From Psychromonas ossibalaenae ATCC BAA-1528 (GTDB lineage: Bacteria > Pseudomonadota > Gammaproteobacteria > Enterobacterales > Psychromonadaceae): a stretch of DNA of 64,000 nt. Below the pieces are notes generated by a model. The model did not search any database. It was not told the origin of the DNA and saw nothing but the letters and a program-made list of their open reading frames with translations. The stretch is taken from NCBI RefSeq assembly GCF_000381745.1, contig NZ_KB906969.1, forward strand, positions 62,001 through 126,000, written 5' to 3'. Shown here in pieces: positions 10,338-50,248 of the stretch (positions within the stretch are counted from its first letter, which is position 1; each line of letters begins with the position of its first letter). The position numbers were made by a program, and so were the translations under genes.

Positions 10338-11354
10338 TTAATCTTTAAGTTGTTTTTCAAGTTCTTTAACACGTTTGAATAAATCATCAATTTTTAACGT
10401 GTAGGCAGTTGTTTTACGCCATGCCCGATTTTTTTGTGCCGGTACGCCGGATGAATAAATACCAGGTTGATCAATGCTGCGCATCACCATGCTGTCACCG
10501 GTAATAACCACATTATCAGTAATATTTAAATGGCCGTTCATTGCAACCGAGCCGCCGAGTATACAGTTTTTACCAATTTTTGTACTGCCGGCAACATTTG
10601 AACCACCGGCAATTGCTGTATGGGCTCCGATCGACACATTATGAGCAATCTGGCATTGATTATCAATTTTTACACCATCTGCAATGACGGTATTGGATAA
10701 TGCGCCGCGGTCAATGGTTGTTGAGGAGCCGATTTCAACATCATCTCCAATCAAAACCTGACCTATCTGCGGAATTTTGACCCAGGTTCCCTGATACGGT
10801 GCATTACCGAAACCATCTGAGCCGATAACGGTATTAGCATGAATAATACAGCGTCTGCCTAACTGGCAGCTATGATAAACAGTCACGTTAGGGTAAATTT
10901 TAGTACTTTCACCGATAATCGAATCCTGACCAATCACTGTATTTGCCAGAATTTGGCAATTATCGGCTATCTGTACATTAGCGCCGATAACAACATTATC
11001 TGCAATAGCAACATTTTTACCGATTACTGCTGTGGCATCAATCACAGCAGAAGGCGCGATGCCGGCCTTCGAATTCGGAGTGGTATCGAATAAAGACGCG
11101 AGTAATGCATAACCTACATAGGGGTTATCCATAAACAGTGCATTACCCTGATAACTTTCCTGTAACTCAATCGGTAATACAATTGCATCTGCTTGACATA
11201 GCTCAAGTTTAGCCAGTAACTTTTTGTCTGATACAAAAGTAATATCACCGGTTCCCGCGGTATCAAAGGTAGCAAGACGTTCTAAGACAAGATTTTCATC
11301 ACCGCCTAACTGTGCATTTAACTGCTTAGCTAACTGAGCCAGATTATATGTCAT
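10338..11354 (-). CDS. lpxD: UDP-3-O-(3-hydroxyacyl)glucosamine N-acyltransferase
   Basis: Third lipid A enzyme; adds the N-linked hydroxyacyl chain to the glucosamine ring. The N-terminal uridine-binding domain (about residues 1-100) is followed by a long left-handed beta-helix of hexapeptide repeats. [15 protein letters not shown] and the catalytic His segment [16 protein letters not shown] are present. The C-terminal helix ends in a KRVKELEKQ coiled segment. At 338 residues it is normal in length. It lies between skp and fabZ. Confidence 0.97.
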
Positions 11355-11364
11355 TACCTGCTGC

Positions 11365-11877
11365 CTACTTCTTACTGATTTCTTTAATGATGATGTCTGA
11401 AATATCTAATGCAGGGTTAGTATAAAGAGTTTGTTCACCGTTCATGATCACATCATAACCCTGCTTAGCAGCAACCGCTTCGATAACCTTCTGCACTTCA
11501 AGGAAAGATTTCTGCTGCTCTTCATTCTGACGACGGCGGTTATTTTCTTCGAATGCTTTACGCTTAAGCTGGTACTCAGAGCGTTTAACTTCAATCTGTA
11601 GATTTAGTTCGAATGCATCCGACGCAGACATCATTTCTCGATCACGTTTCAGTTTTGCATCTAGCTCTGTTAATTTAGCTTCAATAGTCTGGATGTCTTC
11701 ATAACGATCTTTGAACTCAGCTTGTAAGCTTTTCTGTATCGCGTCACGCTGCGGCGATGCTTTTAGAATTTTAGTTGGAAATACGACACCAATTTTTGCA
11801 GCTTCCTGCGAAGCATTAGCCATTGGAACAGAAATTAATGCAACAGCGATTGTAACTACTTTAAAAAAAGACTTCAT
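11365..11877 (-). CDS. skp: Periplasmic chaperone Skp (OmpH)
   Basis: Holdase chaperone that carries unfolded outer-membrane proteins to the Bam complex. A signal peptide ([15 protein letters not shown], cleavage after MANA, about residue 22) precedes a short beta core and two long charged helices (about residues 50-130) that form the jellyfish-like arms of the trimer. The 170-residue length fits the family. It lies directly downstream of bamA, the conserved order. Confidence 0.95.
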
Positions 11878-11948
11878 TTTATAACTCCGTAATAATAAAA
11901 GATAACACTGCAGTCTGTTATATAGGCTGCAGTTATATTTGTAAAAAA

Positions 11949-14372
11949 TTAGAATGTTTCACCAATATTGAATGAGAATACTTCCGTACGATCTCCTTCA
12001 TATTTTTTGATCGGCCAGGCCAGAGTGAAAATTAATGGTCCCATGGGGGAAACCCAGGTAATCTGCGTACCCGCTGAAACACGTATTCTACCAGGCTTAG
12101 AATAATCACCAAAATAATCACAGTTATATGAACAGCTTACCTGCTGATATTTCTCATAATCAAACTCAGTATCCCACACTTCACCGGCATCGATAAACAA
12201 ACTGCTGCGTACCTGTCTGGTATAGGCTTCATCAAGGAACGGTACCGGGAAGATGACTTCACCGCTTAATGTATATTTAGCATTACCACCTACAGCATTA
12301 TCAGTCAAAAGCAGTGAGTTATTACCCACGCTGTTTTGTCCGCTGTACATTGCACGAGGACCTACCGTATTACTGGCGAAACCACGCAGGGTTCTGTAAC
12401 CACCAGCATAATAATTCTCGAAGAAAGGCAGTATCTGATCATGACCTTCGAAGGTACCGTAACCATTACCGTAACCGGCACTGCCTCGAAGCAGGGTCGT
12501 CCAGTCACCGTCATCGGTAATACGCTGATAATTGCTGATCTCAAAATTTATTTTAAAGTACTGCAGATCTGAACCTGGTACGGTCATTTTGCCCGATAAA
12601 GAGTGCTTCATACCTTGAGTGGCTAACTGCCCTTTATCTAGATTATTTCGTGTCCATTTAGCTGTTACATCAAAATTCTGGAAGTTAACCGAACCGTCGT
12701 CATTAAGCATTGAACCATAAATATCCCAGAAAGTAGTTAACTGTTCGTAGGATTTTAATTGTGAAATACCGTTATTTTCCCAGCCGACACTGAAACCTAA
12801 GCGGTTAAGTTCATTCACTGGAAAGCCTAAATTACCGCGTACACCATAAGTTGTATTGGTGTAGTCAACAATGTTTGCTTCACCCGCTTCAAATTTATCA
12901 TAAAAGAGTCGACCGCCGCCGCTGACGCCGTCTTTGGTTAAATAAGGTGTCGTATAATTTACATTTGCGCTGGTATTATATTTATTAGTTTTTACTTCAA
13001 AACCAACTTTGTCACCGGATCCGAGGAAGTTGTTCTGCTGTACACCACCTGTCAGGCTCATACCTGATTCAGTACCGTAACCAACGCCCGCATTAAAGGA
13101 GCCCGAAGCCTGTTCTTCTACAGCAATATTCAGGTCGACTAAATCATCACTGACTCTTTCGGTATTGATATCAACCTTAGAGAAAAAACCTAAACGGTTA
13201 AGACGAGCTTTTGACGTTTCAATACTTTCGCTTGATAACCAGCCGCCTTCCATCTGACGCATCTCACGGCGTAATACAACATCTTTAGTCGTAGTATTAC
13301 CGGAAATATTAATATGACGAACATAACCACGCTGACCGGGTTCAATAGAAAAGTTAACTGAAACCGTCTTGGTTTCATCATCAATTTCAGGGTAGGTGGT
13401 AATTTCCGGGTAGGCATAACCTAAACGCCCGAAGAATTTACGAATACTTTGTTCTGCAAATGAGACATCAGATGCGGCATAAACATCGCCACTCTTAAAA
13501 GGTACCAGCGAGGCAATTTCAGCATCGTGATCTAATAAATCACCGATAAATTTAACATCATCGATTTTATATATATCGCCTTCATCCACATTCACCGTTA
13601 CATAAACACCCTTTTTATTCGGGGTTAACGCAACTTGTGTTTCATCAATCGCAAAACGAATATAACCGCGATCCAGGTAATAGCTTTTTATAACTTCTAA
13701 ATCACCCGCAAGCTTCTGCTTCTGGTAATTATCATCGGCAAAAAAGTCCCACCAGCCGCCGGAGTCACTTAGTGTCAGACGTTTGAGCAGCAGCTCATCG
13801 GGAAAAACAGTATTACCAATAATATTAATCTGTTCGATCTTTGCAGTCAGACCTTCTCGAAATACGAACTGGACAGAGACCCGGTTACGAGGCAGCGGCG
13901 TGACGATAGTTTCAACTTTTGCGCTGTATTTACCGACACTGTGATAGAAATCTTCCAGGCTTTTTTCGATAGCACTGAGTGTTGTGCGGTCTAGAGATTC
14001 ACCAACCTGCACTGCAGATGATTTTAATGAATCAAAAATTTGTTCTTCGGTTAATTTATCGTTGCCGCTTAATTCAACATTACTAATCGTCGGACGCTCT
14101 TTAACGGTGAAGATAACAACATCACCGTCTCTGCTCAGTTCGATTGATTCAAAATGACTGCTGGCATAAAGCTTTTTGACTGCTTTAGATAATTCATAAT
14201 CATCAACAACATCACCTTCTCTAATTGGCAGGCTCAGTAAAGCTGCACCTAAAGTGACCCGCTGCAGACCTTTAAACTGCAGATCTGAAACAGTGAATTG
14301 TTCTGCAAATGATAATGCAGGTAAACAGCTGCCGATTACAATCGCAGAAGAAAGTAGATATTTCTTAATCAT
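11949..14372 (-). CDS. bamA: Outer membrane protein assembly factor BamA
   Basis: Central outer-membrane subunit that folds and inserts beta-barrel proteins. A signal peptide ends near LSFA (residue 23), followed by five POTRA repeats (roughly residues 24-420) and a 16-strand C-terminal barrel. The barrel ends with FSFNIGETF, the aromatic-terminated signal of outer-membrane proteins. The loop [12 protein letters not shown] carries the conserved RGF motif of Omp85 proteins. At 807 residues it matches E. coli BamA (810). It is preceded by rseP with a 198-base gap. Confidence 0.98.
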
Positions 14373-26187: not shown

Positions 26188-26859
26188 TCATTTTACTTTG
26201 ATAAAAGATAATAATAACTGACACAAATCTGTCGGGGTGTGACAAAGGTAATCGGCTCCCCATAAGTTAAAATCATCGTTTTTAAATTTAAAGCCATAAT
26301 TAACAGCAATGCTTTTCATACCTGCATTTTTAGCTGTACAAATATCTTTAGCATGATCACCACAATAAATAGCATCTTTTGGATCCACCCCCAAGTAATT
26401 ACATGCTTTCACTAAACCTTCGGGATCTGGCTTAATAACACTAACTTGTTCAGGGCAAATTATAATCTTAAAAGCATGATCTAAACCTATTGCTGACATT
26501 ATGGGCAGTGCTAACTTTTCAGGTTTATTAGTTACAACCGCCATTGATATATCAGCCTTATAAAGGTGCTGTAAGGTGGCAACAATTTCACCGTATGGTT
26601 CTACATTTAATGCGGATATAGGCTGATAATGATCAAGAAACACTTTTCTAATTGCTGTTTTACGTTCTGTGGTAAATTCACTGTCGCAAAGTTCTTCTAT
26701 GATTCCAATAGATCCATGAGAGATACGCTCAATAAAAAAATCATCATCAGGACAATCAATACCATAAACTGAAAAAGCATACTTTAATGATTGAACAAAA
26801 CCTGCAGATGTATCAACAATAGTGCCATCTAAATCAAAGAGTAATGTTACTTTTGTCAA
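26188..26859 (-). CDS. HAD-superfamily phosphatase, phosphoglycolate-phosphatase-like
   Basis: A 223-residue Mg-dependent phosphatase. The nucleophile motif DLDGTIVDT (Asp9, Asp11) is intact, VVTNKPEKLA is motif II/III, and YCGDHAKDICTAKNAG is motif IV. A helical cap domain (about residues 15-80) places it with Gph/PGP-like HADs rather than with the capless KdsC type. It lies 16 bases downstream of the aldolase/cytidylyltransferase fusion, so it probably acts on a sugar-phosphate intermediate of that cassette. The substrate is unknown. Confidence 0.8.
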   Translation of the reverse strand: MTKVTLLFDLDGTIVDTSAGFVQSLKYAFSVYGIDCPDDDFFIERISHGSIGIIEELCDSEFTTERKTAIRKVFLDHYQPISALNVEPYGEIVATLQHLYKADISMAVVTNKPEKLALPIMSAIGLDHAFKIIICPEQVSVIKPDPEGLVKACNYLGVDPKDAIYCGDHAKDICTAKNAGMKSIAVNYGFKFKNDDFNLWGADYLCHTPTDLCQLLLSFIKVK

Positions 26860-26875
26860 AATAATTTCCTATTCA

Positions 26876-29182
26876 TTACTCTATGCCTTTACTAGTTAAA
26901 AAAGCTTCTACTTTGTCAATATCTTCAGGTACATCTACCGCAATTGAAGAAAAAGTAGTTTCCGTCATTTTAACCTTGTGCCCTAAATCAACTAACCTGA
27001 GCAATTCTATATCTTCATACTTTTCATTTCTTGTTTTATCATTGCTAGTGAAAACTTCTAAAGCATGCTTAGTAAAACCATACACACACACTTGACGGTA
27101 TGCCTTTAATTTTTGTTGTTTACTGTAATTAACCGGAAGCGCTGCCCGAGACATGTATATGAGTTCATTGTCATTATTGAGCACTACTTTTACAATTGTT
27201 GGAGTGTTAAATTCGCTTTCTGTTACTTCTTTAAAACAATTATAGGCGATGTATTGCTCTCCATGTATTCTATAACTATCAATCACTTCATTGACGACAG
27301 AAGGATCTATAACGGGTTCATCCCCTTGAACATTAACATACAAGTCATAATCATAACGAGAAGCAAACTCAGCAACCCGATCAGTCCCGGTTAAACATTG
27401 TTCAGAAGTCATTATTACTGACATATTCTGGGACAGACAAAACGCTTTAATTTGTTGATTATCAGTCAAAATAAAAGTATCGACCTCAGGAATATTGACT
27501 ACTTGCTGATATGTTCGCTTTATCATTGGTATACCTGCAATTTTAGCCAGAGGCTTACCGGGAAAACGTGAAGATTTATATCGTGCAGGAATAATAACAG
27601 CTATTTTTAGCGGCAAATCTTTCTTATAAAGTGAAGGTGTTAAAAATTGAATAGAAAGGTTAGTCGTTATTTTTTTTAATCCAGCTAAAACTTCCTCATT
27701 ACGGGATGCTTTTTCTTTAGAACTTAATGCCCCATAACTAGATCCGTGAATCAAATCATCGGAATTTATTTGGTAACCATCTAACCCAGCAATAGATACC
27801 CGTTTGGAACCTGACAGGCTTAATGCATTTAACAATAATAACACAGCATTATTGCTGAATACTTCACTGTTTTCATAAAGCGTCTTAAAGTTTAAACGAA
27901 TGCATGCTCTATGTTGAGATAACATTGAAAGATTGGACGTTACTATTAAACGAGTACTATCCCAAATAAAGTGCGCAAATTCGTTGTACCTTTTTTGATT
28001 AGAAAAAAATAGATAATCAGCTTTCAACGTGTCAGGTACATGGTTTATAGCAATGATATTATAATCATAATGAATTACTTTTTTTTCTATTTCACTTTGG
28101 TGTAAAGCAACACTAGTACCCGGAGCTATCAACAAAAGATTGCCAACATCAAAAGGTAAAGTATCACAACAATCAGTATTTTCTCTTTTATTATAATCAA
28201 GATAAATTGTTTCTATTGCCTCTTGTCGGTAATTATTTTTTTCAACTTCATTCAATTCATTTAACAAGCGTTGAATAATAGATACGGGTAAGGTTTTCTG
28301 ATTGATTAAATAAGAGGCATAATTAGGGTGAGTTCCAGCAGCTGCAGATAAAAATTGTCCTAAATTTGGCCCCCAATTATATTGTTGAGCAATAGGCTCA
28401 ATATAATTATCGATGGCTTCAAGTACTTCCAGAAGTTGGTATTGAGGTGCAATATGTTTAAGACTGTTAATCAGCACTTCTGTAGGAAGGTTTCCAGCTC
28501 CTCTCCCCATCCCCATAAGTGATGAATCTACGATTAACTCTCTTTTAAGAGACATATTAAAAAATGTCATCGCGTTTGATAACGAAAGCTGCATATTATT
28601 ATGAGAATGAAAGCCCATCAGAATATCAGACGACAAATTATGATCAACAAGTAAAGCTAAACGATTCAGGCATGATGCGTCCATATTGCCAAAGCTATCA
28701 ACCAAATAAAAAGCATACGGCGCTAATTTATTTACTTCTTCTAATAACGCCAACAATTCCATATCAGAGTAGTTAGCCGTCACCATAGGCTGAATAAAAA
28801 CCTGATAACCTAAAGCTTTTATTTCTTTAGCCTGACGGATAGCATCATGCCAATCTTTCCTATGGAATGCTAACCTTATACCCGATAAAGAAGGTATTAC
28901 ACATTTAGCTGGTAATTGCTTAATATCTAGTTCACCATAATTGCACATCACGACAAATTTCGTATTTATGTCAGAAAAATCATTTCCAATATAAGAAGTT
29001 AAATTATTAATATCCTTACTATAAGTGTTGCCAATATGCTGTTCATGGCTTAAATAACCTATTTCAATAAGATCAATATTTGCCACAACCAAACTGGTGA
29101 TAATTCCGCGGATATCCCGGCCTTTAAACTGCCAGTTATTTATATAACCACCATCACGTAAGGTACAATCAAGTATCATCAT
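26876..29182 (-). CDS. Fusion: DRE-TIM aldolase, MptE-like domain and KdsB-like cytidylyltransferase
   Basis: A 768-residue protein with three parts. Residues ~1-270 are an HMGL-like (4-hydroxy-2-oxovalerate aldolase type) DRE-TIM barrel: DCTLRDGG at 5-12, metal ligands in GFHSHNN, and the GMGRGAGNLPTE signature. Residues ~335-520 (starting LLLIAPGTSVALH) resemble the MptE-like fold that is also seen in Maf proteins. Residues ~523-768 are a full KdsB-type CMP-keto-sugar synthetase, with PARYKSSRFPGKPL, TGTDRVAEFA and VNVQGDEP. The start overlaps the upstream gene by four bases (ATGA). The order suggests that a keto-acid sugar is made by the aldolase and activated with CMP by the same polypeptide. 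The actual substrate is not known. Confidence 0.82.
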   Translation of the reverse strand: MMILDCTLRDGGYINNWQFKGRDIRGIITSLVVANIDLIEIGYLSHEQHIGNTYSKDINNLTSYIGNDFSDINTKFVVMCNYGELDIKQLPAKCVIPSLSGIRLAFHRKDWHDAIRQAKEIKALGYQVFIQPMVTANYSDMELLALLEEVNKLAPYAFYLVDSFGNMDASCLNRLALLVDHNLSSDILMGFHSHNNMQLSLSNAMTFFNMSLKRELIVDSSLMGMGRGAGNLPTEVLINSLKHIAPQYQLLEVLEAIDNYIEPIAQQYNWGPNLGQFLSAAAGTHPNYASYLINQKTLPVSIIQRLLNELNEVEKNNYRQEAIETIYLDYNKRENTDCCDTLPFDVGNLLLIAPGTSVALHQSEIEKKVIHYDYNIIAINHVPDTLKADYLFFSNQKRYNEFAHFIWDSTRLIVTSNLSMLSQHRACIRLNFKTLYENSEVFSNNAVLLLLNALSLSGSKRVSIAGLDGYQINSDDLIHGSSYGALSSKEKASRNEEVLAGLKKITTNLSIQFLTPSLYKKDLPLKIAVIIPARYKSSRFPGKPLAKIAGIPMIKRTYQQVVNIPEVDTFILTDNQQIKAFCLSQNMSVIMTSEQCLTGTDRVAEFASRYDYDLYVNVQGDEPVIDPSVVNEVIDSYRIHGEQYIAYNCFKEVTESEFNTPTIVKVVLNNDNELIYMSRAALPVNYSKQQKLKAYRQVCVYGFTKHALEVFTSNDKTRNEKYEDIELLRLVDLGHKVKMTETTFSSIAVDVPEDIDKVEAFLTSKGIE

Positions 29183-30585
29183 TTTACCACCTTATTTTTC
29201 AGCTTACCCACCAAGGCTTGATGAACCCGAGCTATCACAGCATCCCAACCTAACTCTCCAACTTGTTGATTAAAAACAGTCACAGATGGAAAAAATAATG
29301 ATTGATTATCGGTAGTAGTACGCCACCACCAAAATGGATACTTAGAGCACATTAACAAAGTTGGTACCCCTAAAGCACCCGCAAAGTTTGCAACCGCATT
29401 ATCAACCGTAATAACAAGATCCAGTTGTGATATTAATGCTCCGTAGTCAAGAAAATCACCTGATGGAGAGGCATTGTCAACTACATGAATGAGTTTACCT
29501 GTTTTATTCTCCAACTGCTGAATCTCGGTTCTTATCTCACCGTGTTGTAAATTCACCCAGGTAATATTGTTTTCATTAAATAAACCAGACAAATTATTTA
29601 ACGCAATAGATCGACTATTATATTGATAATCATTATTGCCTCCTTTCCAGGATATACCAACTTTCAAACCAGAATATTCTGGAAATTCAACCTTACTTTT
29701 CGCTTGTAGAGGAAGAAATGATTGTTGAAAAGATTCAATTGTTGGTCGCATATATTCAAATAAATCGCCAGCCAAACAATAGCAATCTAAATGGGTTTTC
29801 AATTCAGTGGTATTTAGACTTACAATTTTTTTATTAAATGATTTGTAGCTGTGCACTATGCACGAAGGAAAATTACTACTGAATAATTTTTTTAGCCTTT
29901 CATTCACCACTAAAGAACATTCCAGCCCTTGTTTTGTCAACTGATGAATTACCGTAGAAAAGAGTAATTCGTCACCAATCCCTTGTTCAAAAATAATAGC
30001 TAATTTAACTTTATTATTTTTATCCCCCTTCCACAAAGGAAGTTTACGACTAATAACAACGGAATGATCTGTCTCTAATTTTTTTCTTAATCGATATAAT
30101 TGCCAGCCATTATGAAGATCACCACAATAAAGTTGCAGCTGCCCATGCCCATAAAGATCTTTATCATTGCCTCTTAAGTCAATCAATTTGGCAGATACAG
30201 CCAAAGCGCCAACAAAATCCCCTTGATAAGCCAAGTTACGAGAAATATCCAATAAAATACTGACATTACCAGTTTGATTGAATAATTGTTCAAATATTGA
30301 TTGAGCTTCATCATAATTTTGACGCTCAGTTAAAACTACACCGAGCAAGTGCCAAATAGCAAGATCTGCTTTATTCAAAGCAACTAACAGCCGGAGCATT
30401 TTTTCTGCCACAGAAAAGTTTTTTACTGATACCGCAGATGTGGCCACCAATTTAAGAATAAGGCCATTGTTAGGAAATTGCTCTAATGCTTTAGAGCCTT
30501 TAACAACAGCTTCTTTAAAAAATTTCTTTTTGATCAGCTTTTGCAATTGGCGGACAGTTTGTTCTACAGTTTTTTTCAACGCCAT
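29179..30585 (-). CDS. TPR protein with C-terminal GT9-like glycosyltransferase domain
   Basis: A 468-residue protein. The N-terminal ~170 residues are TPR-like helical pairs (for example LWHLLGVVLTERQNYDEAQS). The C-terminal half resembles heptosyltransferase-like GT-B enzymes: EQGIGDELLFSTVI in the acceptor domain, KVGISWKGG at the start of the second Rossmann domain, and TVDNAVANFAGALGVPT in the donor site. No signal peptide or membrane segment was seen. It is translationally coupled (four-base overlap) to the fusion gene downstream. It likely transfers a sugar to a protein or glycan; donor and acceptor are unknown. Confidence 0.75.
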   Translation of the reverse strand: MALKKTVEQTVRQLQKLIKKKFFKEAVVKGSKALEQFPNNGLILKLVATSAVSVKNFSVAEKMLRLLVALNKADLAIWHLLGVVLTERQNYDEAQSIFEQLFNQTGNVSILLDISRNLAYQGDFVGALAVSAKLIDLRGNDKDLYGHGQLQLYCGDLHNGWQLYRLRKKLETDHSVVISRKLPLWKGDKNNKVKLAIIFEQGIGDELLFSTVIHQLTKQGLECSLVVNERLKKLFSSNFPSCIVHSYKSFNKKIVSLNTTELKTHLDCYCLAGDLFEYMRPTIESFQQSFLPLQAKSKVEFPEYSGLKVGISWKGGNNDYQYNSRSIALNNLSGLFNENNITWVNLQHGEIRTEIQQLENKTGKLIHVVDNASPSGDFLDYGALISQLDLVITVDNAVANFAGALGVPTLLMCSKYPFWWWRTTTDNQSLFFPSVTVFNQQVGELGWDAVIARVHQALVGKLKNKVVK

Positions 30586-40369: not shown

Positions 40370-41392
<1,023 letters not shown>

Positions 41393-41410
41393 TAATTATA
41401 ACTAAAGCAT

Positions 41411-42571
41411 ATGATCCCCTACGGTAAACAAGACATTAATCAGCAAGATATCGACGCAGTCATTGATGTCTTGCGATCTGATTTTCTAACTCAAGGCCCT
41501 AAGGTACCTCTTTTTGAAAAAACCATAAATTCAGTCTGCAGCTCTCAATATGCCGTTGCCGTTAACTCTGCAACTTCTGCACTGCACATAGCCTGCCTTG
41601 CGCTCGGGGTTAGTCAAGGAGATCTAGTCTGGACAACACCTATCACCTTTGTGGCTTCTGCAAACTGTGCTTTGTACTGTGGTGCGAGCATCGATTTTGT
41701 CGACATTGATCCAGATACCTATAACCTTTGCCCAATACAATTAGAAAAAAAATTACAGCAGACTAAACAGCTAAAACAGCCTCTACCAAAAGTTGTCATT
41801 CCTGTTCATCTATGCGGCCAGTCTTGCGATATGCAGGCAATCCACCAGCTCAGCTTAGAATATGGCTTTTCTATTATTGAAGATGCATCTCATGCCATTG
41901 GTGGAAAATATCAAGAGCACCCGATAGGTAATTGTTTATATAGTGATATAACCATTTTCAGCTTTCACCCGGTAAAGATTATTACCACAGCTGAAGGTGG
42001 AGCGGCAACAACTAACGATCCACAGCTGGCTGATAAAATGGCCTTGTTTCGCAGCCACGGCATTACTCGTGATGAAAATTTAATGACAGAGCCCTCTCAC
42101 GGCGCCTGGTATTACCAGCAGATTGAATTAGGTTTTAACTACCGCATGACAGAGCTGCAGGCGGCGCTTGGAATCAGCCAGCTGTCGAGGATAAATGAAT
42201 TCATTTCTGAACGTATTCAATTAGCTGAAGTATATAATCAGCAGTTAAAAAAACTGCCTATAACCCTTCCTAAGCAGTTGAAAGAAAGCAGTTCATCCTG
42301 GCATCTCTATGTTATTCAACTGCAGCTGGGTAAAATAACTAAAACACACCAGCAGGTATTTGAGCAGTTAAGATCATCGGGAATAGGAGTAAATCTACAC
42401 TATATCCCTGTTCATATTCAGCCCTATTACCAGGAATTAGGTTTTAAACCTGGTCAGTTTCCTGTTGCTGAAAGTTACTACCGGCAGGCTATAAGCCTGC
42501 CGCTGTTTCATCATATGAGTGAAAAACAGTTTAAAAGAGTAGTTAATACACTGACAGACATACTGGAGTAG
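41411..42571 (+). CDS. pseC: UDP-4-keto-6-deoxy-L-AltNAc 4-aminotransferase
   Basis: DegT/DnrJ/EryC1-family PLP enzyme that places the 4-amino group, giving UDP-4-amino-4,6-dideoxy-L-AltNAc. The PLP-binding Lys is in FSFHPVKIITTAEGG; IIEDASHAIGG and NYRMTELQAALG are family signatures. The 386-residue length is normal. It lies 18 bases after pseB and is followed by a GNAT acetyltransferase, the standard order. Confidence 0.94.
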   Translation: MIPYGKQDINQQDIDAVIDVLRSDFLTQGPKVPLFEKTINSVCSSQYAVAVNSATSALHIACLALGVSQGDLVWTTPITFVASANCALYCGASIDFVDIDPDTYNLCPIQLEKKLQQTKQLKQPLPKVVIPVHLCGQSCDMQAIHQLSLEYGFSIIEDASHAIGGKYQEHPIGNCLYSDITIFSFHPVKIITTAEGGAATTNDPQLADKMALFRSHGITRDENLMTEPSHGAWYYQQIELGFNYRMTELQAALGISQLSRINEFISERIQLAEVYNQQLKKLPITLPKQLKESSSSWHLYVIQLQLGKITKTHQQVFEQLRSSGIGVNLHYIPVHIQPYYQELGFKPGQFPVAESYYRQAISLPLFHHMSEKQFKRVVNTLTDILE

Positions 42572-42574
42572 ATA

Positions 42575-43129
42575 ATGTTAAAAACCCCATTATTAACCGG
42601 GAAGCAGATTTACTTAAAAGCACTGATGCAGACAGATGTCACAGATGAATATGTACAGTGGTTAAATGATTCCAGCATCAATCAGTTTTTAGAATCCCGT
42701 TATCAGACACAAACTGCAGCATCTTGCCGGCATTTTGTTGGTGAATTGCAGTCACAAAATAACAACTGTTTTTGGGGCATCTATTGTAATCAAAGCAAAC
42801 AGCATATCGGCAATATAAAACTGGGACCAGTTAACAAACTTTATCAGCGTGCCACAATCGGTTTATTAATTGGCAATAAGTCTTATTGGGGAAAAGGAAT
42901 TGCCACTGAAGCAATTAACTTGGTAAGTGACTTTGCATTTCAGAAGCTGAGTTTGCATAAAATAGATGCCGGCTGCTACGTCTCAAACCAAGGCTCAAAA
43001 AAGGCCTTTCTTAAAGCGGGTTATCAGGTCGAAGGGCTTTTAAAAGACCACTTTTTTTATCAGAATAAGTTTGAACATTGTGTACTGTTAGGCAAAATAT
43101 GTGAAAATTCACAAAAGGACACGCAATGA
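42575..43129 (+). CDS. pseH: UDP-4-amino-sugar N-acetyltransferase (PseH-like)
   Basis: A 184-residue GNAT-fold enzyme expected to acetylate the 4-amino group made by PseC. The acetyl-CoA loop region IGLLIGNKSYWGKGIATEAI and the following helix are typical of RimJ/RimL-like PseH proteins. It lies three bases after pseC and overlaps the aldo/keto reductase gene by four bases (ATGA). The PseH role is inferred from family and position. Confidence 0.85.
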   Translation: MLKTPLLTGKQIYLKALMQTDVTDEYVQWLNDSSINQFLESRYQTQTAASCRHFVGELQSQNNNCFWGIYCNQSKQHIGNIKLGPVNKLYQRATIGLLIGNKSYWGKGIATEAINLVSDFAFQKLSLHKIDAGCYVSNQGSKKAFLKAGYQVEGLLKDHFFYQNKFEHCVLLGKICENSQKDTQ

Positions 43130-43989
43130 AGCTGGCACTGGGCACAGTTCAATTTGGTTTAGATTACGGCATCACCAACCTAGATGGAAAAATAACCAAT
43201 AGTGAAGCGAACAAGATAATCAAGAGAGCTGACAAAGCAAACATTTCACTATTTGATACAGCCTGTGTTTACGGGGATAGCGAAAACCGTTTAGGTAAAT
43301 TAACCCAAGGTTACCCACAGTTTAAGTTTATTAGTAAATTTTCGACAACAGCAAAAGAAACCATTAATATCAGTAAAACCCTGCATAGCTCTCTCGAGAA
43401 ACTAAACTGCTCTTCACTTTATGGTTTGTTATTTCATGATGAAAATGATCTATTAAGCCCTCAAGGCTCTGGTTATTATCAGCAGTTAACTGATTTGAAA
43501 GCACAAGGTAAAATTCAGAAAATTGGCGCTTCATTTTATACACAACAAGCATTAGAGAAAGCTCTTGAACAATATCAGCTAGACCTTATTCAGATCCCGG
43601 CAAGCTGTCTTGATCAGCGCTTCCAGCAGAGCGGCTTGTTACAAGAAGTACAAAAACAAAATATTGAGGTGCATGCCCGCTCACTATTTTTACAAGGTTT
43701 ACTGCTTAGTCAGAATACTAACTTACCCGCTTCACTGCAGAAATTCATGCCCGAATTAGAGTTTTATTTCACCACGGCAAAGCGCTTAAATTTAACACCA
43801 TTACAGCTTGCTTTAGCTTATTTAATACAAACCGACGAAATTAATTATGGTGTTGTCGGCTGTCAAAACTCACAACAACTTTTAGAGATCATTAATGCTT
43901 ACAGTGAAATGCAGCAAAAAGAACTAAATATCAACTTTAATTCACTAGCCGTCACTAATGAGCTATTAGTAAATCCAGCCCTCTGGTAG
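43126..43989 (+). CDS. Aldo/keto reductase in the sugar cluster
   Basis: A 287-residue NAD(P)H-dependent oxidoreductase of the AKR superfamily. LGTVQFGLDYGI at the N-terminus, the catalytic FDTACVYGDSE (Asp and Tyr), the Lys in KFISKFS and the His in LLFHDEND form the AKR tetrad. GVVGCQNSQQL is the cofactor segment. It is not part of the classical Pse pathway. Its position between pseH and the cytidylyltransferase suggests that it reduces a keto group on the sugar or a side chain. The substrate is unknown. Confidence 0.85.
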   Translation: MKLALGTVQFGLDYGITNLDGKITNSEANKIIKRADKANISLFDTACVYGDSENRLGKLTQGYPQFKFISKFSTTAKETINISKTLHSSLEKLNCSSLYGLLFHDENDLLSPQGSGYYQQLTDLKAQGKIQKIGASFYTQQALEKALEQYQLDLIQIPASCLDQRFQQSGLLQEVQKQNIEVHARSLFLQGLLLSQNTNLPASLQKFMPELEFYFTTAKRLNLTPLQLALAYLIQTDEINYGVVGCQNSQQLLEIINAYSEMQQKELNINFNSLAVTNELLVNPALW

Positions 43990-44013
43990 TAACAATAAAA
44001 CGAGGAAATAAAA

Positions 44014-44775
44014 ATGAAAGTGGTTGCAATTGTTCAGGCTAGATGCAGTTCTACTCGCCTGCCGAATAAAGTATTAAAAAAAATACTCGGCAAACCTATG
44101 CTGCAGCAGCAGATTGAGCGTATTCAGCGCAGCAGATTAATTGACAAACTGGTCATAGCAACCTCAACGAAGACTGAAGACGAAGGTATTGTGGATTTAT
44201 GCCGACAGCTTAATGTCAGCTGCTTTACTGGAAGTCTAAATAATGTTTTAGAACGCTATTATCGAGCAGCTGGAGAATACAAGGCAGATGTTATTGTACG
44301 TTTAACTGGGGACTGCCCTCTGACAGATGCGGCAGTTATTGACCAAGTTATCAAAAAACACCTTAACTCAAACAATGACTACACATCTAATATAGATCCA
44401 GAAACCTTTCCTGACGGATTAGATGTTGAAGTATTTAACTATAAGACATTACAACAAGCGGAGTTAAAAGCTAAAAAACCGTCTGAATTAGAGCATGTCA
44501 CGCCATATATACGAAATAATAAAGAGTTTATAAAGGGCTCCCTGCAGTCTTCACAAAACTATAGTCAATATCGATGGACTGTTGATGAACCTGAAGACTT
44601 AGAGTTTGTAACCCAGATCTATCAGCAGCTGGGAAGTACCGGGCAGTATTTTGATGCCGATAAAATCTACCAGCTGTTAGAAGAGCACCCGGAATTATTA
44701 ACGATAAATCAAAACCTTATTCGTAATGAAGGCCTGCTCAACTCATTAAAAGAAGATAAATTACAGGAAAATTAA
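44014..44775 (+). CDS. SpsF-like cytidylyltransferase, candidate CMP-pseudaminate synthetase
   Basis: A 253-residue nucleotidyltransferase of the SpsF/KdsB-like group. AIVQARCSSTRLPNKVLKKI is the CTP-binding loop, followed by VRLTGDCPLTDAAVID, the metal site. Typical PseF/NeuA enzymes instead start with an IPARGGSK-type loop. It is the only cytidylyltransferase in this cluster and may do the CMP activation. It is probably in one transcript with its neighbours. I leave the gene symbol blank because a PseF role is not proven. Confidence 0.8.
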   Translation: MKVVAIVQARCSSTRLPNKVLKKILGKPMLQQQIERIQRSRLIDKLVIATSTKTEDEGIVDLCRQLNVSCFTGSLNNVLERYYRAAGEYKADVIVRLTGDCPLTDAAVIDQVIKKHLNSNNDYTSNIDPETFPDGLDVEVFNYKTLQQAELKAKKPSELEHVTPYIRNNKEFIKGSLQSSQNYSQYRWTVDEPEDLEFVTQIYQQLGSTGQYFDADKIYQLLEEHPELLTINQNLIRNEGLLNSLKEDKLQEN

Positions 44776-44777
44776 AT

Positions 44778-46064
44778 ATGAGCCGCTATCAACACTCAGA
44801 AGAGTTATTAACGAGAGCATTACAAACGATCCCTTTAGGCTCACAAACTTTTTCAAAAAGCAAAACACAATTTCCCGAGGGAGCTTCGCCCTTCTTTTTA
44901 GAAAAAGGCAAAGGCTCAAAGGTCTGGGATGTAGACGGTAATGAATATATTGATTTCATGAACGGCCTGTTGTGTGTCTCCATCGGTTATGCCGACGATG
45001 AAGTTAATAATGCCGTCTGTACACAGATTCAGAACGGCACAAGTTTTTCATTACCTCACCGGCTAGAGATGGAAGTCGCTGAAAAGTTAGTTGAGATGAT
45101 TCCTTGTGCTGAAAAAGTCCGTTTTGGCAAAAACGGCACAGATGCCACTTCTGGTGCAATTCGTCTAGCACGAGCTTATACCAATAAAGAGATGATATTA
45201 GTATGCGGTTATCACGGCTGGCAGGACTGGTATATAGGCTCAACAAGCAGAAACTTAGGCGTACCGGAATCAACCAGAGCGCTAACAAAAACCTTTGTCT
45301 ATAACGATATTGAATCACTTAAGCGCTTAACTGCCTTATACAAAGGTAAAGTCGCGGCTATTATTATGGAGCCGATGAATGTTGAGTTTCCAAATCCAGG
45401 TTATCTTGAATCAGTACAGCAGATAGCCAAAGAGGAAGGCATTGTTTTCATATTTGATGAAACCATTACCGGCTGCCGTTTTGCTAAAGGTGGTGCTCAA
45501 GAGTTGTTTAATATTACGCCAGATTTGGCAACCTTTGGAAAAGGGCTGGCAAATGGTTTTCCGCTTTCAGCAGTCGTTGGCAAATCTGAAATAATGGATC
45601 TGATGGAAGATATTTTCTTTTCCGGCACCTTTGCTGGTGAAACAGCCTCACTTGCGGCGGCCAAAGTTGTGCTCGAAAAAGTTGAAAAATTAGATACCCC
45701 GACAGCTCTAAGAAAAACAGGTGAATACCTGCTGACCAACCTGAATAAATTAATTATTGATCTAGAGTGTCAGTCATTTTTAAAAACAGCAGGCCATCCC
45801 TCCTGGTCATTTCTAATGATCCAGGATACTGAGCCCTACTCAAGCTTTGAAATCAAGACACTGTTTATGCAGGAGGTATTACAACGAGGTATTCTAACCT
45901 TCGGCACCCATAACATCAGTTATTCACACAGTGTCGAAGATATCGATACTTTACTCTCTTGTTATAAGCAGGTATTTCCTATTTTAAAAGAGGCGATAGA
46001 AACACAAACAGTTAAAGAAAAACTGAACTGCAAAGTATTACAGCCTCTATTTAAGGTGAGATAA
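44778..46064 (+). CDS. Class III aminotransferase (GSA-aminomutase-like)
   Basis: A 428-residue PLP enzyme related to HemL. PLP-binding features are IIMEPMN, FIFDETITGCRF and the Schiff-base Lys in TFGKGLANGFPLSAVVGK; GKNGTDATSGAIRLARAYT binds the cofactor phosphate. It is unlikely to be the tetrapyrrole enzyme given its location two bases after the SpsF-like gene. It probably adds an amino group to the sugar or its precursor, with the aldo/keto reductase acting nearby. The exact substrate is unknown. Confidence 0.82.
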   Translation: MSRYQHSEELLTRALQTIPLGSQTFSKSKTQFPEGASPFFLEKGKGSKVWDVDGNEYIDFMNGLLCVSIGYADDEVNNAVCTQIQNGTSFSLPHRLEMEVAEKLVEMIPCAEKVRFGKNGTDATSGAIRLARAYTNKEMILVCGYHGWQDWYIGSTSRNLGVPESTRALTKTFVYNDIESLKRLTALYKGKVAAIIMEPMNVEFPNPGYLESVQQIAKEEGIVFIFDETITGCRFAKGGAQELFNITPDLATFGKGLANGFPLSAVVGKSEIMDLMEDIFFSGTFAGETASLAAAKVVLEKVEKLDTPTALRKTGEYLLTNLNKLIIDLECQSFLKTAGHPSWSFLMIQDTEPYSSFEIKTLFMQEVLQRGILTFGTHNISYSHSVEDIDTLLSCYKQVFPILKEAIETQTVKEKLNCKVLQPLFKVR

Positions 46065-46066
46065 TA

Positions 46067-47146
46067 ATGCTGAATATTGCCTTTCGAGCAGACTCTTCTT
46101 ATGAAATTGGTACTGGTCATATTATGCGCTGCTTAACGCTTGCTTTAGCAGTCCAAAAAAAACATAAAGCCAATATCTACTTTTTCACTCGTAAAAACAG
46201 CGGCAGTATAAACAGCTTAATAACAGATGCAGGCTTTTACCTCGTAGAGATGAAAGCCTCAGAAAAAATCAATAACCCAGCCTTGAGCCATTCAGCCTGG
46301 TTAGGCGCTGCACAGGAAGAGGATGCAGAAGAGTTTATTAAGTTATGCAATAAGCGCCGTTTTGATCTTCTTATTATTGACCACTATGCCATTGACAGAA
46401 AGTGGCATCAGCTAGTTAATAAACAAACAAAAGAGATAGCAGTCATTGATGATCTCGGAGATCGTTACCTGCAATGTGATTATCTACTGGATCAAACATT
46501 TAACTGCCCGGATCATAAATATAATAAACTTGTCAGCCGTAACTGTGTTCAGATGCTGGGCACAAAATTCGCTCTATTACGGGATGAATTTCAACATCAG
46601 CCTCAAAAACAGCCGGCAAATACAGCTTCAAAACTGTTAGTTATGTTTGGAGGAACGGATCCGGACAATCTCACTCTGCAGGCATTAACTCAGCTCAATC
46701 AACGAACCGATATTGATAAAATTACAATCATTATGGGAAGAGCTGCTTTACATATCGATAGTGTGGTTCAGTTTATAGAAAAGCAGAATAATATAATAAC
46801 CTTTGATTTACAGATAAGCCCGGAAAATATTGCAGTATTAATGTCAGAAGCAGACCTTGCTGTCGGTGCTGCAGGCACCACCTCATGGGAGCGCTGCGCA
46901 GCAGGATTACCCACGGTGGTAATTATCCAGGCAGAAAATCAAAGGCAGATCGCATCTGAATTAAATAATCTGCAAATAATCACTTATCTCGAAGCAAAAC
47001 AGATAAAAACGCTACTAAATAAACAGGTGACAGAGTGGATTAGCAATCCAGCCAAACTACAGGCATCGATTAACAACGGACAAAAAATTTGTGATGGTTA
47101 TGGCGCCTCACGAGTCATAAACAGGATTTTTAATCATGAACAATAA
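46067..47146 (+). CDS. pseG: UDP-2,4-diacetamido-trideoxy-L-altrose hydrolase
   Basis: Releases UDP from the 2,4-diacetamido sugar so that PseI can use it. It is a GT-B-like fold of 359 residues with the PseG signature FRADSSYEIGTGHIMRCLTLA (glycine loop and His) and the C-terminal AVGAAGTTSWERCAAGLPTV. The 3' end overlaps the formyltransferase-like gene by 11 bases. It is consistent with pseudaminic rather than legionaminic acid, whose route uses a NeuC-like enzyme. Confidence 0.92.
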   Translation: MLNIAFRADSSYEIGTGHIMRCLTLALAVQKKHKANIYFFTRKNSGSINSLITDAGFYLVEMKASEKINNPALSHSAWLGAAQEEDAEEFIKLCNKRRFDLLIIDHYAIDRKWHQLVNKQTKEIAVIDDLGDRYLQCDYLLDQTFNCPDHKYNKLVSRNCVQMLGTKFALLRDEFQHQPQKQPANTASKLLVMFGGTDPDNLTLQALTQLNQRTDIDKITIIMGRAALHIDSVVQFIEKQNNIITFDLQISPENIAVLMSEADLAVGAAGTTSWERCAAGLPTVVIIQAENQRQIASELNNLQIITYLEAKQIKTLLNKQVTEWISNPAKLQASINNGQKICDGYGASRVINRIFNHEQ

Positions 47147-47831
47147 CTATGTTGTTGCCACAATAAAAGAGTGGAATATAAGCCAGTATGAACAGCAGAA
47201 AAAAAAGCTGCCTGGAACTTGGCACCTTATATCCACTCCAGAGCAGCTGACAATTGAACAGCTCAGAAAAATAAACCCTCGTTATGTCTTTTTTCCCCAC
47301 TGGAGCTGGATCGTCAGTGAAGAAATATTAAATGAGTTTGAATGTGTCTGTTTTCATATGACGGATTTACCATTTGGACGCGGCGGAAGCCCGTTACAAA
47401 ATCTGATTCAACGAGGCTATAAAGAAACACAATTAACCGCATTAAAAATGAATAAACAGCTTGATGCTGGAGATATTTATTTAAAGCACCCTCTTAATCT
47501 GAGCGGCAGTGCCGCAGATATCTTTTTAAAAGCAGCTCAGTTAACTTTTATAATGATAAAACAAATTGTAACATCAGAGCCGGCAGCATCACCACAGCAG
47601 GGACAAGTTGTTGAGTTTAAACGGAGAACACCTGCACAAAGTGAAATACCTAAAAATTTAACGATCGAACAAATTTATAATCATATACGCATGCTGGATG
47701 CAGAAAGTTATCCCAAGGCATTTATCGATTATGGTGACTTTAGAATTGAATTTAAAAATGCATCAATCAATGAACAACAAACCCTTACAGCGCAGATAAT
47801 ACTCTCGCCCAAAAAACAGATTGAGAAATAA
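47136..47831 (+). CDS. Formyltransferase-fold protein with altered catalytic triad
   Basis: A 231-residue protein aligning with the catalytic domain of methionyl-tRNA and sugar formyltransferases. The stretch from Cys72 to Pro78 (CFHMTDLP) followed by GRGGSPLQ corresponds to the NVHGSLLP...GAAPIQ region. LDAGD (Asp110) matches the catalytic aspartate. In the usual Asn-His-Asp triad the Asn is replaced by Cys72, while His74 and Asp110 remain. It could formylate an amino group of the sugar with 10-formyl-THF, but the missing Asn makes the activity uncertain. It overlaps pseG by 11 bases. Confidence 0.72.
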   Translation: MNNNYVVATIKEWNISQYEQQKKKLPGTWHLISTPEQLTIEQLRKINPRYVFFPHWSWIVSEEILNEFECVCFHMTDLPFGRGGSPLQNLIQRGYKETQLTALKMNKQLDAGDIYLKHPLNLSGSAADIFLKAAQLTFIMIKQIVTSEPAASPQQGQVVEFKRRTPAQSEIPKNLTIEQIYNHIRMLDAESYPKAFIDYGDFRIEFKNASINEQQTLTAQIILSPKKQIEK

Positions 47832-47835
47832 GCAG

Positions 47836-48894
47836 ATGATTAAAAACTATATTGAAATTGATGGTAAAAAAATTGGTCCCGATCACAAACCCTATATCAT
47901 TGCAGAGCTTTCAGCTAACCATAATGGTGATATCAATAAAGCGTTACAAACAATCGAAGAAGCTGCCAAATGCGGTGCGGATGCTATAAAAATTCAAAGC
48001 TATACAGCCGATACCATGACTATCAATTGTGATAAAGATGACTTTCAAATTAAAGGCGGTTTATGGGATGGTTATAAGCTTTACGATCTTTATCAGGAAG
48101 CACACACTCCTTTTAAATGGCATTCACAGCTTTTTGCAAAAGCAAAAGAAGTGGGTATAACCCTATTTTCAACACCATTTGATGAAACAGCCGTTGAATT
48201 ACTTGAATCACTCGATACACCCGCTTATAAAATTGCTTCATTTGAGATGACGGATCTGCCTTTAATAAAACGAGTAGCAGAAACAGGCAAACCAATGATT
48301 ATCTCTACAGGCATGGCAGATTATGCGGAGATTAAAGAAGCCATTACTACCGCAAGAAAGCATGGCTGTAACGAGTTAGTCATCTTACACTGCATTAGCG
48401 CTTATCCTGCTCCCTATGAGCAGGCAAATTTAGCAACGATAAAAGATATATCGCAGCAGTTTGAGGTCATATCAGGTTTATCCGATCATACCCTAGGCAC
48501 AGCCGTTTCCATTGCAGCTGTTACCCTAGGCGCCTGTGTTATCGAAAAACACTTTACCCTAGACAGAAATGATAAAGGGCCTGATTCAGCATTTTCTATT
48601 GAGCCTGAAGAGCTAAAACAGCTTGTTAGAGACACTGAAATTGCGCAGCAGGCAATTGGCCTGGCTGGTTATGAACGCAAACCCATTGAACATGCTAGTT
48701 TAACATTTAGGCGTTCACTCTATTTTGTTCAAGATATTAAACAAGGGGAAATAATCGCAGAAGCTCATATCAGGCGCATTCGACCAGGTTTTGGACTGGC
48801 ACCTAAATATTATGACCAGATTATCGGTAAAAAATGTAAACAGGACATTAAGCGTGGGACAGCAGTGCAGTGGGAGTTAATAGATGACAAATAA
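47836..48894 (+). CDS. pseI: Pseudaminic acid synthase
   Basis: Condenses the 6-deoxy-diacetamido-altrose with phosphoenolpyruvate. It is a NeuB-like TIM barrel: IAELSANHNGDINKAL, ADAIKIQSYTADTM, STGMADYAEI and SGLSDHTLGT. A C-terminal SAF (antifreeze-like) domain begins near residue 290 (RSLYFVQDIKQGE). The frame is open from TTG 47821, but ATG 47836 gives the family N-terminus and 352 residues. It starts five bases after the formyltransferase-like gene. Confidence 0.93.
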   Translation: MIKNYIEIDGKKIGPDHKPYIIAELSANHNGDINKALQTIEEAAKCGADAIKIQSYTADTMTINCDKDDFQIKGGLWDGYKLYDLYQEAHTPFKWHSQLFAKAKEVGITLFSTPFDETAVELLESLDTPAYKIASFEMTDLPLIKRVAETGKPMIISTGMADYAEIKEAITTARKHGCNELVILHCISAYPAPYEQANLATIKDISQQFEVISGLSDHTLGTAVSIAAVTLGACVIEKHFTLDRNDKGPDSAFSIEPEELKQLVRDTEIAQQAIGLAGYERKPIEHASLTFRRSLYFVQDIKQGEIIAEAHIRRIRPGFGLAPKYYDQIIGKKCKQDIKRGTAVQWELIDDK

Positions 48895-49558
48895 CAGAGT
48901 ATTAGTCGTAGCAGCACACGCTGATGATGAAGCATTAGGCTGTGCCGGCACGCTGGCTAAACACACAGCATCAGGCGATCAGGTTAGCATCATTTTTATG
49001 ACGGACGGCGTTTCATCTCGGTATCCATCAAACACTGAGCAGTCGCAGGCAAGAAGTGATGCGAAATTAAAAGCAATGGAACTGCTTGGAATCACTAATA
49101 TTTATCAGCATTCATTTCCAGATAATAAAATGGACAGTGTGCCCCTGCTTGATATTGTGCAGGTTGTAGAGCAGACAATCTCCGATATTCAACCTACAAT
49201 TATTTACACTCATTTTGCTTCTGATCTGAATATTGATCATAGAGTAACCCATAATGCAGTGATGACAGCCTGCAGACCTCAAAAAACAAGCTCAGTTAAA
49301 ACGATTTTATCCTTTGAAGTATTATCCAGCACAGAGTGGAACTCACCTTCTCAAACGGCTTTTACTCCTCAATATATAGTGGACATCACTAACTTCTGGG
49401 CAGTAAAAGAAAAAGTACTGAATTGTTATCAGGAGGAGCTGCGGGTTTTCCCGCATAGCCGCAGTTTACAGTGTATAGAAGCACTCGCGACTTTGCGCGG
49501 CGCAACGCACGGATTAAATAAAGCAGAAGCATTTTTTGTAGAAAGAATAATAAATTAG
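48884..49558 (+). CDS. PIG-L (LmbE) family deacetylase
   Basis: A 224-residue zinc-dependent N-deacetylase. The metal motif is AHADDE at residues 11-16 (usually AHPDDE), and DLNIDHRVTH supplies further ligands. Members remove acetyl groups from amino sugars and related compounds. Here it overlaps pseI by 11 bases and precedes a formyltransferase-like gene, which suggests removal of an N-acetyl group and its replacement. The substrate is not shown by the sequence. Confidence 0.85.
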   Translation: MTNNRVLVVAAHADDEALGCAGTLAKHTASGDQVSIIFMTDGVSSRYPSNTEQSQARSDAKLKAMELLGITNIYQHSFPDNKMDSVPLLDIVQVVEQTISDIQPTIIYTHFASDLNIDHRVTHNAVMTACRPQKTSSVKTILSFEVLSSTEWNSPSQTAFTPQYIVDITNFWAVKEKVLNCYQEELRVFPHSRSLQCIEALATLRGATHGLNKAEAFFVERIIN

Positions 49559-49594
49559 CAACTGTTGGATATAAGCAATGCATTGGAAATTAAA

Positions 49595-50248
49595 ATGGAC
49601 AAAAAGCAACTAAAAATATCTATCTTAGCAGATAACCCGAACAGCTGGATTATGCCCTATATCCACAATTTAATAGGTAAATTAACCGACTTACATCATC
49701 ATGCACTATTAATTCAAAACCAGCAGCAGATAACTCCAAGCGATATCGTTTTTATACTTGCCTGCGAGAAAATTGTTCCGCCAACAACATTATCACTAAG
49801 TCAGCACAATTTAGTTATACATGAAAGTGCCTTACCCTATGGAAAAGGCTGGTCTCCACTAACCTGGCAAATATTAGATGGAAAAAAACGAATCCCCATC
49901 ACTCTGTTTGAAGCAGACGAAAAAGTTGATGCTGGTGATATCTATTTTCAAGAAATGATGAATTTTGAAGGCCATGAATTAGTTGATGAATTACACCAGA
50001 TACAAGGACAAGCAACCATTCGATTATGTCTTAAATTTATCGATGCGTACCCTGATGTCAAAGGGATTAAGCAGACAGGCAGGGAGTCATATTTTCCGCA
50101 AAGAACCGCAAAAGACAGTCAGGTCTCAGTTAATAACACCATTGAAGAGTTATTTAATAATTTCAGAGTCGCTGACAATGAAAAGTACCCCGTTTTTTTC
50201 GAACTGCACGGTAAAAGATACAATCTAAAAATTGAAAAAGTTAATTAA
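49595..50248 (+). CDS. Second formyltransferase-fold protein with altered catalytic triad
   Basis: A 217-residue formyltransferase-domain protein, distantly similar to the one at 47136. VIHESALPYGKG corresponds to the catalytic loop of the family, and VDAGD (Asp112) to the catalytic Asp. The Asn of the Asn-His-Asp triad is replaced by Val74; His76 and Asp112 are kept. The frame is open from TTG 49565, but ATG 49595 has a GGAAAT ribosome site and is preferred. It is the last gene of the cluster. The role as a formyl transferase for the sugar is inferred and uncertain. Confidence 0.7.
   Translation: MDKKQLKISILADNPNSWIMPYIHNLIGKLTDLHHHALLIQNQQQITPSDIVFILACEKIVPPTTLSLSQHNLVIHESALPYGKGWSPLTWQILDGKKRIPITLFEADEKVDAGDIYFQEMMNFEGHELVDELHQIQGQATIRLCLKFIDAYPDVKGIKQTGRESYFPQRTAKDSQVSVNNTIEELFNNFRVADNEKYPVFFELHGKRYNLKIEKVN

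Follow-up and report, generated by a model that had tools for sequence, protein, structure and literature searches.

A stretch of 64,000 nucleotides from the genome of Psychromonas ossibalaenae ATCC BAA-1528 (contig NZ_KB906969.1, positions 62,001 to 126,000; this whole stretch is the window in the following) carries a gene in which a DRE-TIM aldolase, a middle domain (MID) and a KdsB-like synthetase of cytidine monophosphate (CMP)-activated sugars are joined. An earlier note on this DNA had described such a single polypeptide without stating its strand. The gene was found on the minus strand: from 26876 to 29182 an uninterrupted open reading frame of 768 amino acids starts with ATG and has zero internal stops; frame 1 of the plus strand over the same interval contains many stops. 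Pfam and NCBIfam matches bore out the composition, and all five motifs quoted in the note are present in the translation. The Pfam scan of the fusion detected HMGL-like and CTP_transf_3, and no family for the middle part. The genes and domains are:

26876..29182, minus strand: gene of the aldolase-MID-KdsB fusion, 768 amino acids (open reading frame, Pfam, NCBIfam, homologues)
28169..29182, minus strand: DRE-TIM aldolase domain, residues 1-338, with HMGL-like at 2-244 (Pfam, residue alignments)
27611..28168, minus strand: MID, residues 339-524, predicted member of the Maf/GT42/GT29/MptE fold group (AlphaFold2 model, VIA-align, profile comparisons)
26876..27610, minus strand: KdsB-like CMP-sugar synthetase, residues 525-768 plus stop codon (NCBIfam, alignments, tree)
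26188..26859, minus strand: HAD-family gene, 223 amino acids, TTG start, candidate ulosonate-phosphate phosphatase by adjacency alone (PF13419, 135.2 bits, cut-off 23.8)
29179..30585, minus strand: upstream gene, 468 amino acids, weak TPR and weak heptosyltransferase-like matches, possible transferase (all listed Pfam and NCBIfam matches below curated cut-offs)

The HAD gene starts 16 bp downstream of the fusion on the same strand, and the 468-amino-acid gene, also on this strand, overlaps the fusion start by 4 bp. The three genes form an island between glnD and an ABC-transporter set. Its gene parts have a G+C content of 33-36% compared with 41% for the whole window, and by appearance the island looks acquired.

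The same domain order was found at four further loci. A Sulfurovum metagenome-assembled genome (MAG; L030) encodes a full-length homologue of 770 amino acids which is 45% identical across both junctions and is directly followed by a HAD gene. A search in the Sulfurovum phylum added L110, L113 and L114, giving five loci including the window. In the fusion the synthetase is joined without a linker. The congeners L024, L025 and L026 have separate aldolase-MID, HAD and KdsB-like genes in tight order; in the congener L027 the parts are likewise separate and the third gene is NeuA-type. On plasmid NZ_CP081038.1 of the alphaproteobacterium Leisingera sp. M527 an aldolase (WP_260008641.1), a KdsB (WP_260008639.1) and a HAD protein (WP_260008638.1) are encoded in a row. 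Among 72,556 plasmid records 34 matched, none over more than 80% in one place.

In genome surveys, with at most three candidates scored per genome, aldolase-MID genes that covered most of the model turned up in 13 of the 394 genomes from the window's order, in two of the 398 from its phylum (both already in the order survey) and in 13 of the 397 from the Sulfurovum phylum (hand count from the result rows). Linkage was counted with our own profiles at 26 aldolase-MID loci (L036-L048 and L069-L081), six of which had supplied seeds. A KdsB- or NeuA-type synthetase was fused or located within 1.5 kb at 23 of the 26 loci (17 of the 20 non-seed loci), and a HAD gene of at least 35 bits was nearby at 17 (11 of the 20). 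The 16 control aldolases (L050-L065) had neither a synthetase nor a HAD gene nearby (0/16 each). Among ten controls scanned, eight pass the TIGR03217 cut-off of 286; L050 and L051 scored 137.3 and 134.5, adjoin the sugar-type aldolases in the tree and, judged by sequence, are not proper ordinary controls. Seventeen solo aldolases of the second, Sulfurovum phylum had a NeuA-type gene nearby in two cases and a HAD gene in none. L049, which has no MID, has a HAD gene and no synthetase and was kept outside both counts. The proposal of the earlier note that an aldolase and a CMP-sugar synthetase act in one pathway was thus strengthened by several fusion orders or adjacency and by the empty control loci.

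Some side observations concern these loci. A solo aldolase of about 325 amino acids with no synthetase nearby is frequent in the Sulfurovum phylum (L084-L098). L115 contains a bacterial NeuA-aldolase fusion of reverse order (10523-12298). In L111 and L115 several aldolase genes stand next to many of NeuA type, and the range of sugar acids may be enlarged there.

Fused forms were also present in viral contigs. The scan was filtered by two aldolase motifs, which biased the sample towards proteins holding them. It yielded 79 loci: 39 aldolase-KdsB fusions without MID, four NeuA-aldolase fusions in reverse order, two aldolase-MID genes and 34 aldolases alone, some beside a separate synthetase gene. 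The 39 aldolase-KdsB fusions correspond to 28 distinct sequences, used for residue counts, and to 25 clusters at 99.5%. The reverse fusions are those of the phage contigs L226, L231, L232 and L233 (about 4311-5951). In L218, L221 and L230 a separate MID-like gene precedes the aldolase gene (42-59 bits). Neighbours were counted with our own profiles up to 5 kb on each side, less at contig ends, with seeds among the counted loci and several near-copies. Near the 43 fusions we counted an MptE-like gene 29 times, a small DxDG protein 29 times and a GT29-like gene 11 times; near the other 36 loci the numbers were 0, 7 and 1. Three of the 11 GT29-like genes were scanned and all exceeded the Pfam cut-off, those of L178 (2801-3418), L202 (8546-9238) and L209 (3522-4211), as did one in L224 (4306-4995) beside an aldolase-MID gene. 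A phage origin of L195 and L181 is supported by genes close to the fusions, for a UvsX-like recombinase and an exonuclease. The neighbours tried in L178, L197, L207, L218 and L226 gave no PHROG match, and at E 0.001 no PHROG family was found for the viral fusion, three L218 cassette genes or the window protein. Among 50,697 named phage records eight matched, none covering more than 80% of the viral fusion or of the window protein.

The aldolase domain scored 60.1 bits against Pfam PF00682 (HMGL-like, cut-off 29), which places it in the DRE-TIM metallolyase superfamily. Against the TIGR03217 equivalog it reached 75.9 bits, far below the cut-off of 286. Accordingly it is set apart from 4-hydroxy-2-oxovalerate aldolase, also by its location in a sugar locus. 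By profile matches, hydroxy-oxovalerate aldolases are nonetheless the closest characterised relatives; homocitrate and isopropylmalate synthases were matched weakly. The closest solved structure by sequence to the first third is the putative aldolase 3dxi (2.3e-33), presumably from Bacteroides vulgatus. With 3dxi and DmpG (1nvm) the fusion shares the fold family, the DRE motif and the HxH metal ligands. R9, D10, E40, H192 and H194 are conserved in 29 of 29 bacterial rows and in all 28 distinct viral fusions. In contrast to DmpG, the His of the LRDGSH motif is replaced by Tyr13 in the fusion; 3dxi has Tyr as well. Tyr occupies this position in all 28 distinct viral fusions and in 16 of 22 other viral aldolases of sugar type, His in 14 of the 16 controls. 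In the solo aldolase rows L082-L098 Leu is at this position in 15 of 17.

For the aldolase tree 94 of 128 rows were kept after removal of near-duplicates and short pieces; it came from a quick search and its outgroup was not one group. The 76 sugar-type aldolases grouped together at 96% in the Shimodaira-Hasegawa-like approximate likelihood ratio test and contained none of the seven control rows, which themselves did not form one group. All five aldolase-MID-KdsB fusions fall within a single group of 11 rows, whose internal branching is uncertain. Aldolases near each other in the tree have now a KdsB-type, now a NeuA-type partner: L027 is beside L024-L026, and L107/L108 are beside L030/L110.

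The synthetase part matched Pfam CTP_transf_3 at residues 528-731 with 151.9 bits (cut-off 22.6). It reached the KdsB subfamilies NF009905 (256 versus 255) and NF003952 (233.4 versus 193) and remained below the kdsB equivalog TIGR00466 (134.4 versus 155.2). The best solved relative of the last third is 1gq9 (1.9e-35), which we take to be KpsU, the capsule CMP-Kdo synthetase (Kdo, 3-deoxy-D-manno-octulosonic acid). It has the residues of the cytidine triphosphate (CTP) site in common with the fusion. A KdsB study names two metal-binding Asp and one phosphate-binding Lys (PMC3149649); the fusion has all three (D621, D750 and K543). After removal of three duplicate rows, K543, R602, D621 and D750 were invariant across all 20 cassette or fusion rows and all 14 housekeeping rows, and K543, R602 and D621 are kept in all 28 distinct viral fusions. 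The label 'housekeeping' was given per locus by the analyst, with the neighbours checked for L028 and L029 only. The earlier note had considered the motifs intact, and in the alignments the residues are in place at the metal site of the aldolase as well as at the CTP site.

The C-terminal domain of the synthetase behaved differently. The His of the HIG motif is present in 14 of 14 housekeeping rows and in four of 20 cassette or fusion rows, the Gln of EQLR in 14 of 14 and in none of 20; compared with KpsU, which is not part of a fusion, both positions are changed in the window protein. At 697, 699 and 727 all 27 viral-fusion rows covering these positions have Q/C/I and the window fusion has Q/C/L. 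From the changed residues in this domain we infer a substrate sugar other than Kdo. In the tree the 20 cassette or fusion rows separated from the 14 housekeeping rows at 100/99. By sequence, then, the KdsB part appears not to be an ordinary Kdo enzyme, having a clade of its own and a lost sugar-domain signature, and this agrees with the earlier note. The fusions occupy two places in the KdsB tree, window/L030/L110 and L113/L114, and one group in the aldolase tree, so these trees indicate at least two fusion events or a single event with a later exchange of the synthetase.

Is the fusion required for the Kdo supply of the cell? The host genome encodes two KdsA and one KdsC above the family cut-offs and, besides the fusion, two KdsB (TIGR00466, 313.8 and 256.1). 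One of these KdsB genes follows MsbA and LpxK; the second has the second KdsA at a distance of about 1 kb and a KpsF-type isomerase gene at 5.6 kb. Since the host has KdsA, KdsC and KdsB of its own, the fusion would, to judge from the gene content, be dispensable for Kdo supply. The three-gene island contains no gene for a phosphoenolpyruvate (PEP) synthase; both KdsA genes are on other contigs.

The middle domain had been called MptE-like. The window domain is not matched by the MptE-like family PF01973 (cut-off 34.6 bits), and seven of 22 members match it weakly (best E 0.0024). A 22-row MID profile compared with solved structures found the GT42 sialyltransferase 9c08 first (E 0.0015), followed by Cst-II and MptE (E 0.36). 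An AlphaFold2 model of MID from a 7-row alignment had a predicted local distance difference test (pLDDT) score of 78.9 and a predicted template modelling score of 0.80; a model of the whole protein from two sequences reached a pLDDT of only 44.3. VIA-align superimposed the MID model on Maf 5mu5 (Z 12.7), MptE 8sd5 (12.4), SteA (11.6), Cst-I (11.3), Cst-II (10.8) and GT29 (9.8), followed by thiamin pyrophosphokinases (8.0-7.1) and the next unrelated row (4.8). In Foldseek SteA was the sole match at E <0.001; the Maf, MptE and sialyltransferase matches are those of VIA-align. In hhalign the MID profile gave 73% with a 20-row GT42 set (which included some truncated open reading frames), 64.5% with a 16-row set of long MptE-like/Maf proteins, 20.8% with phage GT29 seeds, 18.4% with phage MptE-like seeds, 4.4% with the window's single Maf sequence and at most 0.7% with six unrelated profiles. 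By its model, MID therefore belongs to the Maf/GT42/GT29/MptE fold group; the fold assignment of the earlier note was upheld in this wider form, whereas a plain MptE, below the PF01973 cut-off, was not.

Since Maf, GT42 and GT29 enzymes use CMP-sugars, CMP-sugar binding by MID is a natural guess: judging from the modelled fold MID most likely binds such a sugar, being either a transferase or the remnant of one. Transfer itself is a guess that we hold doubtful. GT42 has a catalytic His, whereas the MID alignment, compared by columns and not by residue-level structural alignment, contains no His in invariant or nearly invariant columns. An acceptor domain is lacking as well. The sequence relationship to Maf, GT42 and MptE is weak, and the other domains of Maf are absent. 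CbMaf is reported to accept Kdo as a donor sugar (PMC11339370), which makes a transferase role of MID plausible in principle.

What might the fusion and its HAD neighbour produce? For the catalytic steps, the residue roles and the product we infer the following. The aldolase domain, as a class II enzyme with its metal held by D10, H192 and H194 and the carboxylate by R9, would add pyruvate to a sugar-phosphate aldehyde. A HAD phosphatase would take the phosphate off the aldol product, and the synthetase domain would couple the ulosonic acid to CTP, pulling the reversible aldol step forward. The end product would be a CMP-activated 3-deoxy-2-ulosonic acid, probably of a sugar other than Kdo, which may finally be placed on flagellin or a surface glycan. 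On the whole we consider this route to a non-Kdo CMP-ulosonate, from pyruvate and a sugar-phosphate aldehyde via dephosphorylation, to be probable. Step by step it would functionally replace KdsA-KdsC-KdsB without PEP. The logic of C-C bond formation, dephosphorylation and CTP activation is the same and the last enzymes are homologous; in contrast to the CMP-Kdo pathway, the first step would fall to a DRE-TIM aldolase and not to a PEP-using synthase, the parts are fused, and the synthetase, whose sugar domain is altered, has a clade of its own. The NeuB/PseI pathways of nonulosonic acids also lead to CMP-activated ulosonic acids, and some cassettes have NeuA-type partners; they differ from the window's island by their PEP synthase. 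The earlier note had put the whole route into one protein. Its pairing of an aldolase with a synthetase was supported, yet the HAD gene at 17 of 26 loci suggests that the route is probably incomplete in one protein and that the aldol product is probably a phosphate. A further-reaching version, in which one polypeptide makes, activates and, with MID as transferase, also transfers a non-Kdo ulosonic acid from pyruvate, and in which phages carry simpler fused versions of this PEP-independent module and may propagate it or use it to decorate themselves or their hosts, appears unlikely to us.

Several data count against the aldolase route. At three of the 26 aldolase-MID loci (L046-L048) there is no synthetase within 1.5 kb, and none in the wider stretches L104-L106; in L104 the aldolase-MID gene comes directly after a transketolase in two parts and a gene for a short-chain dehydrogenase (2405-5116), and L105 and L106 may be similar in their neighbours. 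A HAD gene is missing at nine of the 26 loci, two of which have matches of 16-26 bits only. The window HAD and a profile of the HADs from five other cassettes do not find each other, so the role of the window HAD in the route rests on adjacency; by sequence the HAD genes of the cassettes are not all of one kind, and their typing is that of Pfam HAD_2. The small 'HAD' genes of phage loci are based on a motif and our own profile: one typical DxDG protein had no Pfam HAD match and is a phosphoheptose isomerase in PHROGs, although in L209 a HAD gene of 210 amino acids was confirmed by Pfam. The hhalign value of 18.4% is too low to identify the phage MptE-like gene with MID. Finally, the replacement of the DmpG motif His by Tyr in 29 of 29 aligned bacterial rows means that the aldolase chemistry may differ from that of DmpG.

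This last point is shared by a rival explanation, in which the aldolase carries out another reaction, e.g. a Claisen-type condensation, or lengthens or alters a nucleotide-bound sugar, so that the product is no classical 3-deoxy-ulosonic acid. In its favour, homocitrate and isopropylmalate synthases are matched weakly by profile, and we know of no assayed enzyme from the sugar-type clade. As the closest characterised relatives are hydroxy-oxovalerate aldolases and the partner is an enzyme activating keto-acid sugars, we regard this as improbable. Alternatively, the synthetase might make CMP-Kdo as an ordinary enzyme supplied by the KdsA of the cell, with the aldolase serving another glycan step. 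Its scores reach the two KdsB subfamilies, and the residues of the CTP site are kept; however, the score below the kdsB equivalog, the clade apart with its lost signature and two other KdsB genes in the genome make this, too, a rather poor candidate, and the same aldolase type also pairs with a NeuA-type enzyme within a single genus, as in L027 among L024-L026. Aldolases of this kind are reversible and often catabolic, and the enzyme could run in the retro direction for salvage or limiting of the sugar acid. Fused to a CTP-using activating enzyme and located in polysaccharide or flagellar loci it is very unlikely to do so. An assembly or sequencing error joining two genes might be suspected because relatives of the same genus (L024-L026) have separate genes. 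This was rejected: independent full-length homologues exist in four other genomes (L030, L110, L113 and L114), with 45% identity over both junctions and a close-coupled junction free of a linker, and an artefact is hardly conceivable. The possibility of such an error, which the earlier note had raised against itself, is thereby excluded.

To our knowledge all bacterial CMP-activated ulosonic acids are built by PEP-dependent synthases, and an open-licence PubMed Central literature search found neither the fusion nor the cassette nor a natural aldolase route described. If the aldolase route is true, it would be a second, natural chemical solution to CMP-ulosonic acids. It would explain genes labelled merely 'aldolase catalytic domain-containing protein' and predict so far undescribed surface sugars. 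For making CMP-sugars enzymatically in one pot, the fused forms, including the two-part ones of phages, would be compact candidates.

The surroundings of the island contain, at a distance of 6-28 kb, two-component regulators, a Pse-type sugar cluster, a Maf gene and FliD and flagellin genes. Maf is a PF01973 match in the own genome; the other names were taken from reading the sequences. The Pse-type nonulosonic acid cluster (40397-50248, plus strand; read from sequence) is within the window, 11-21 kb from the fusion. It includes two formyltransferase-like genes (47136-47831 and 49565-50248) and a PIG-L-type deacetylase (48884-49558), which suggests an unusual N-formylated derivative. The flagellin transferase FlmG is reported to have a TPR and a GT domain (PMC7591256); by likeness to this make-up, the 468-amino-acid gene upstream of the fusion could be a transferase. 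In L031, a MAG of another gammaproteobacterium, a KdsB gene of cassette type and genes that by sequence reading resemble glycosyltransferases (51-3909) were located beside glnD-map-rpsB. Possibly this site, occupied in the window by 26188-30585, is an insertion hot spot.

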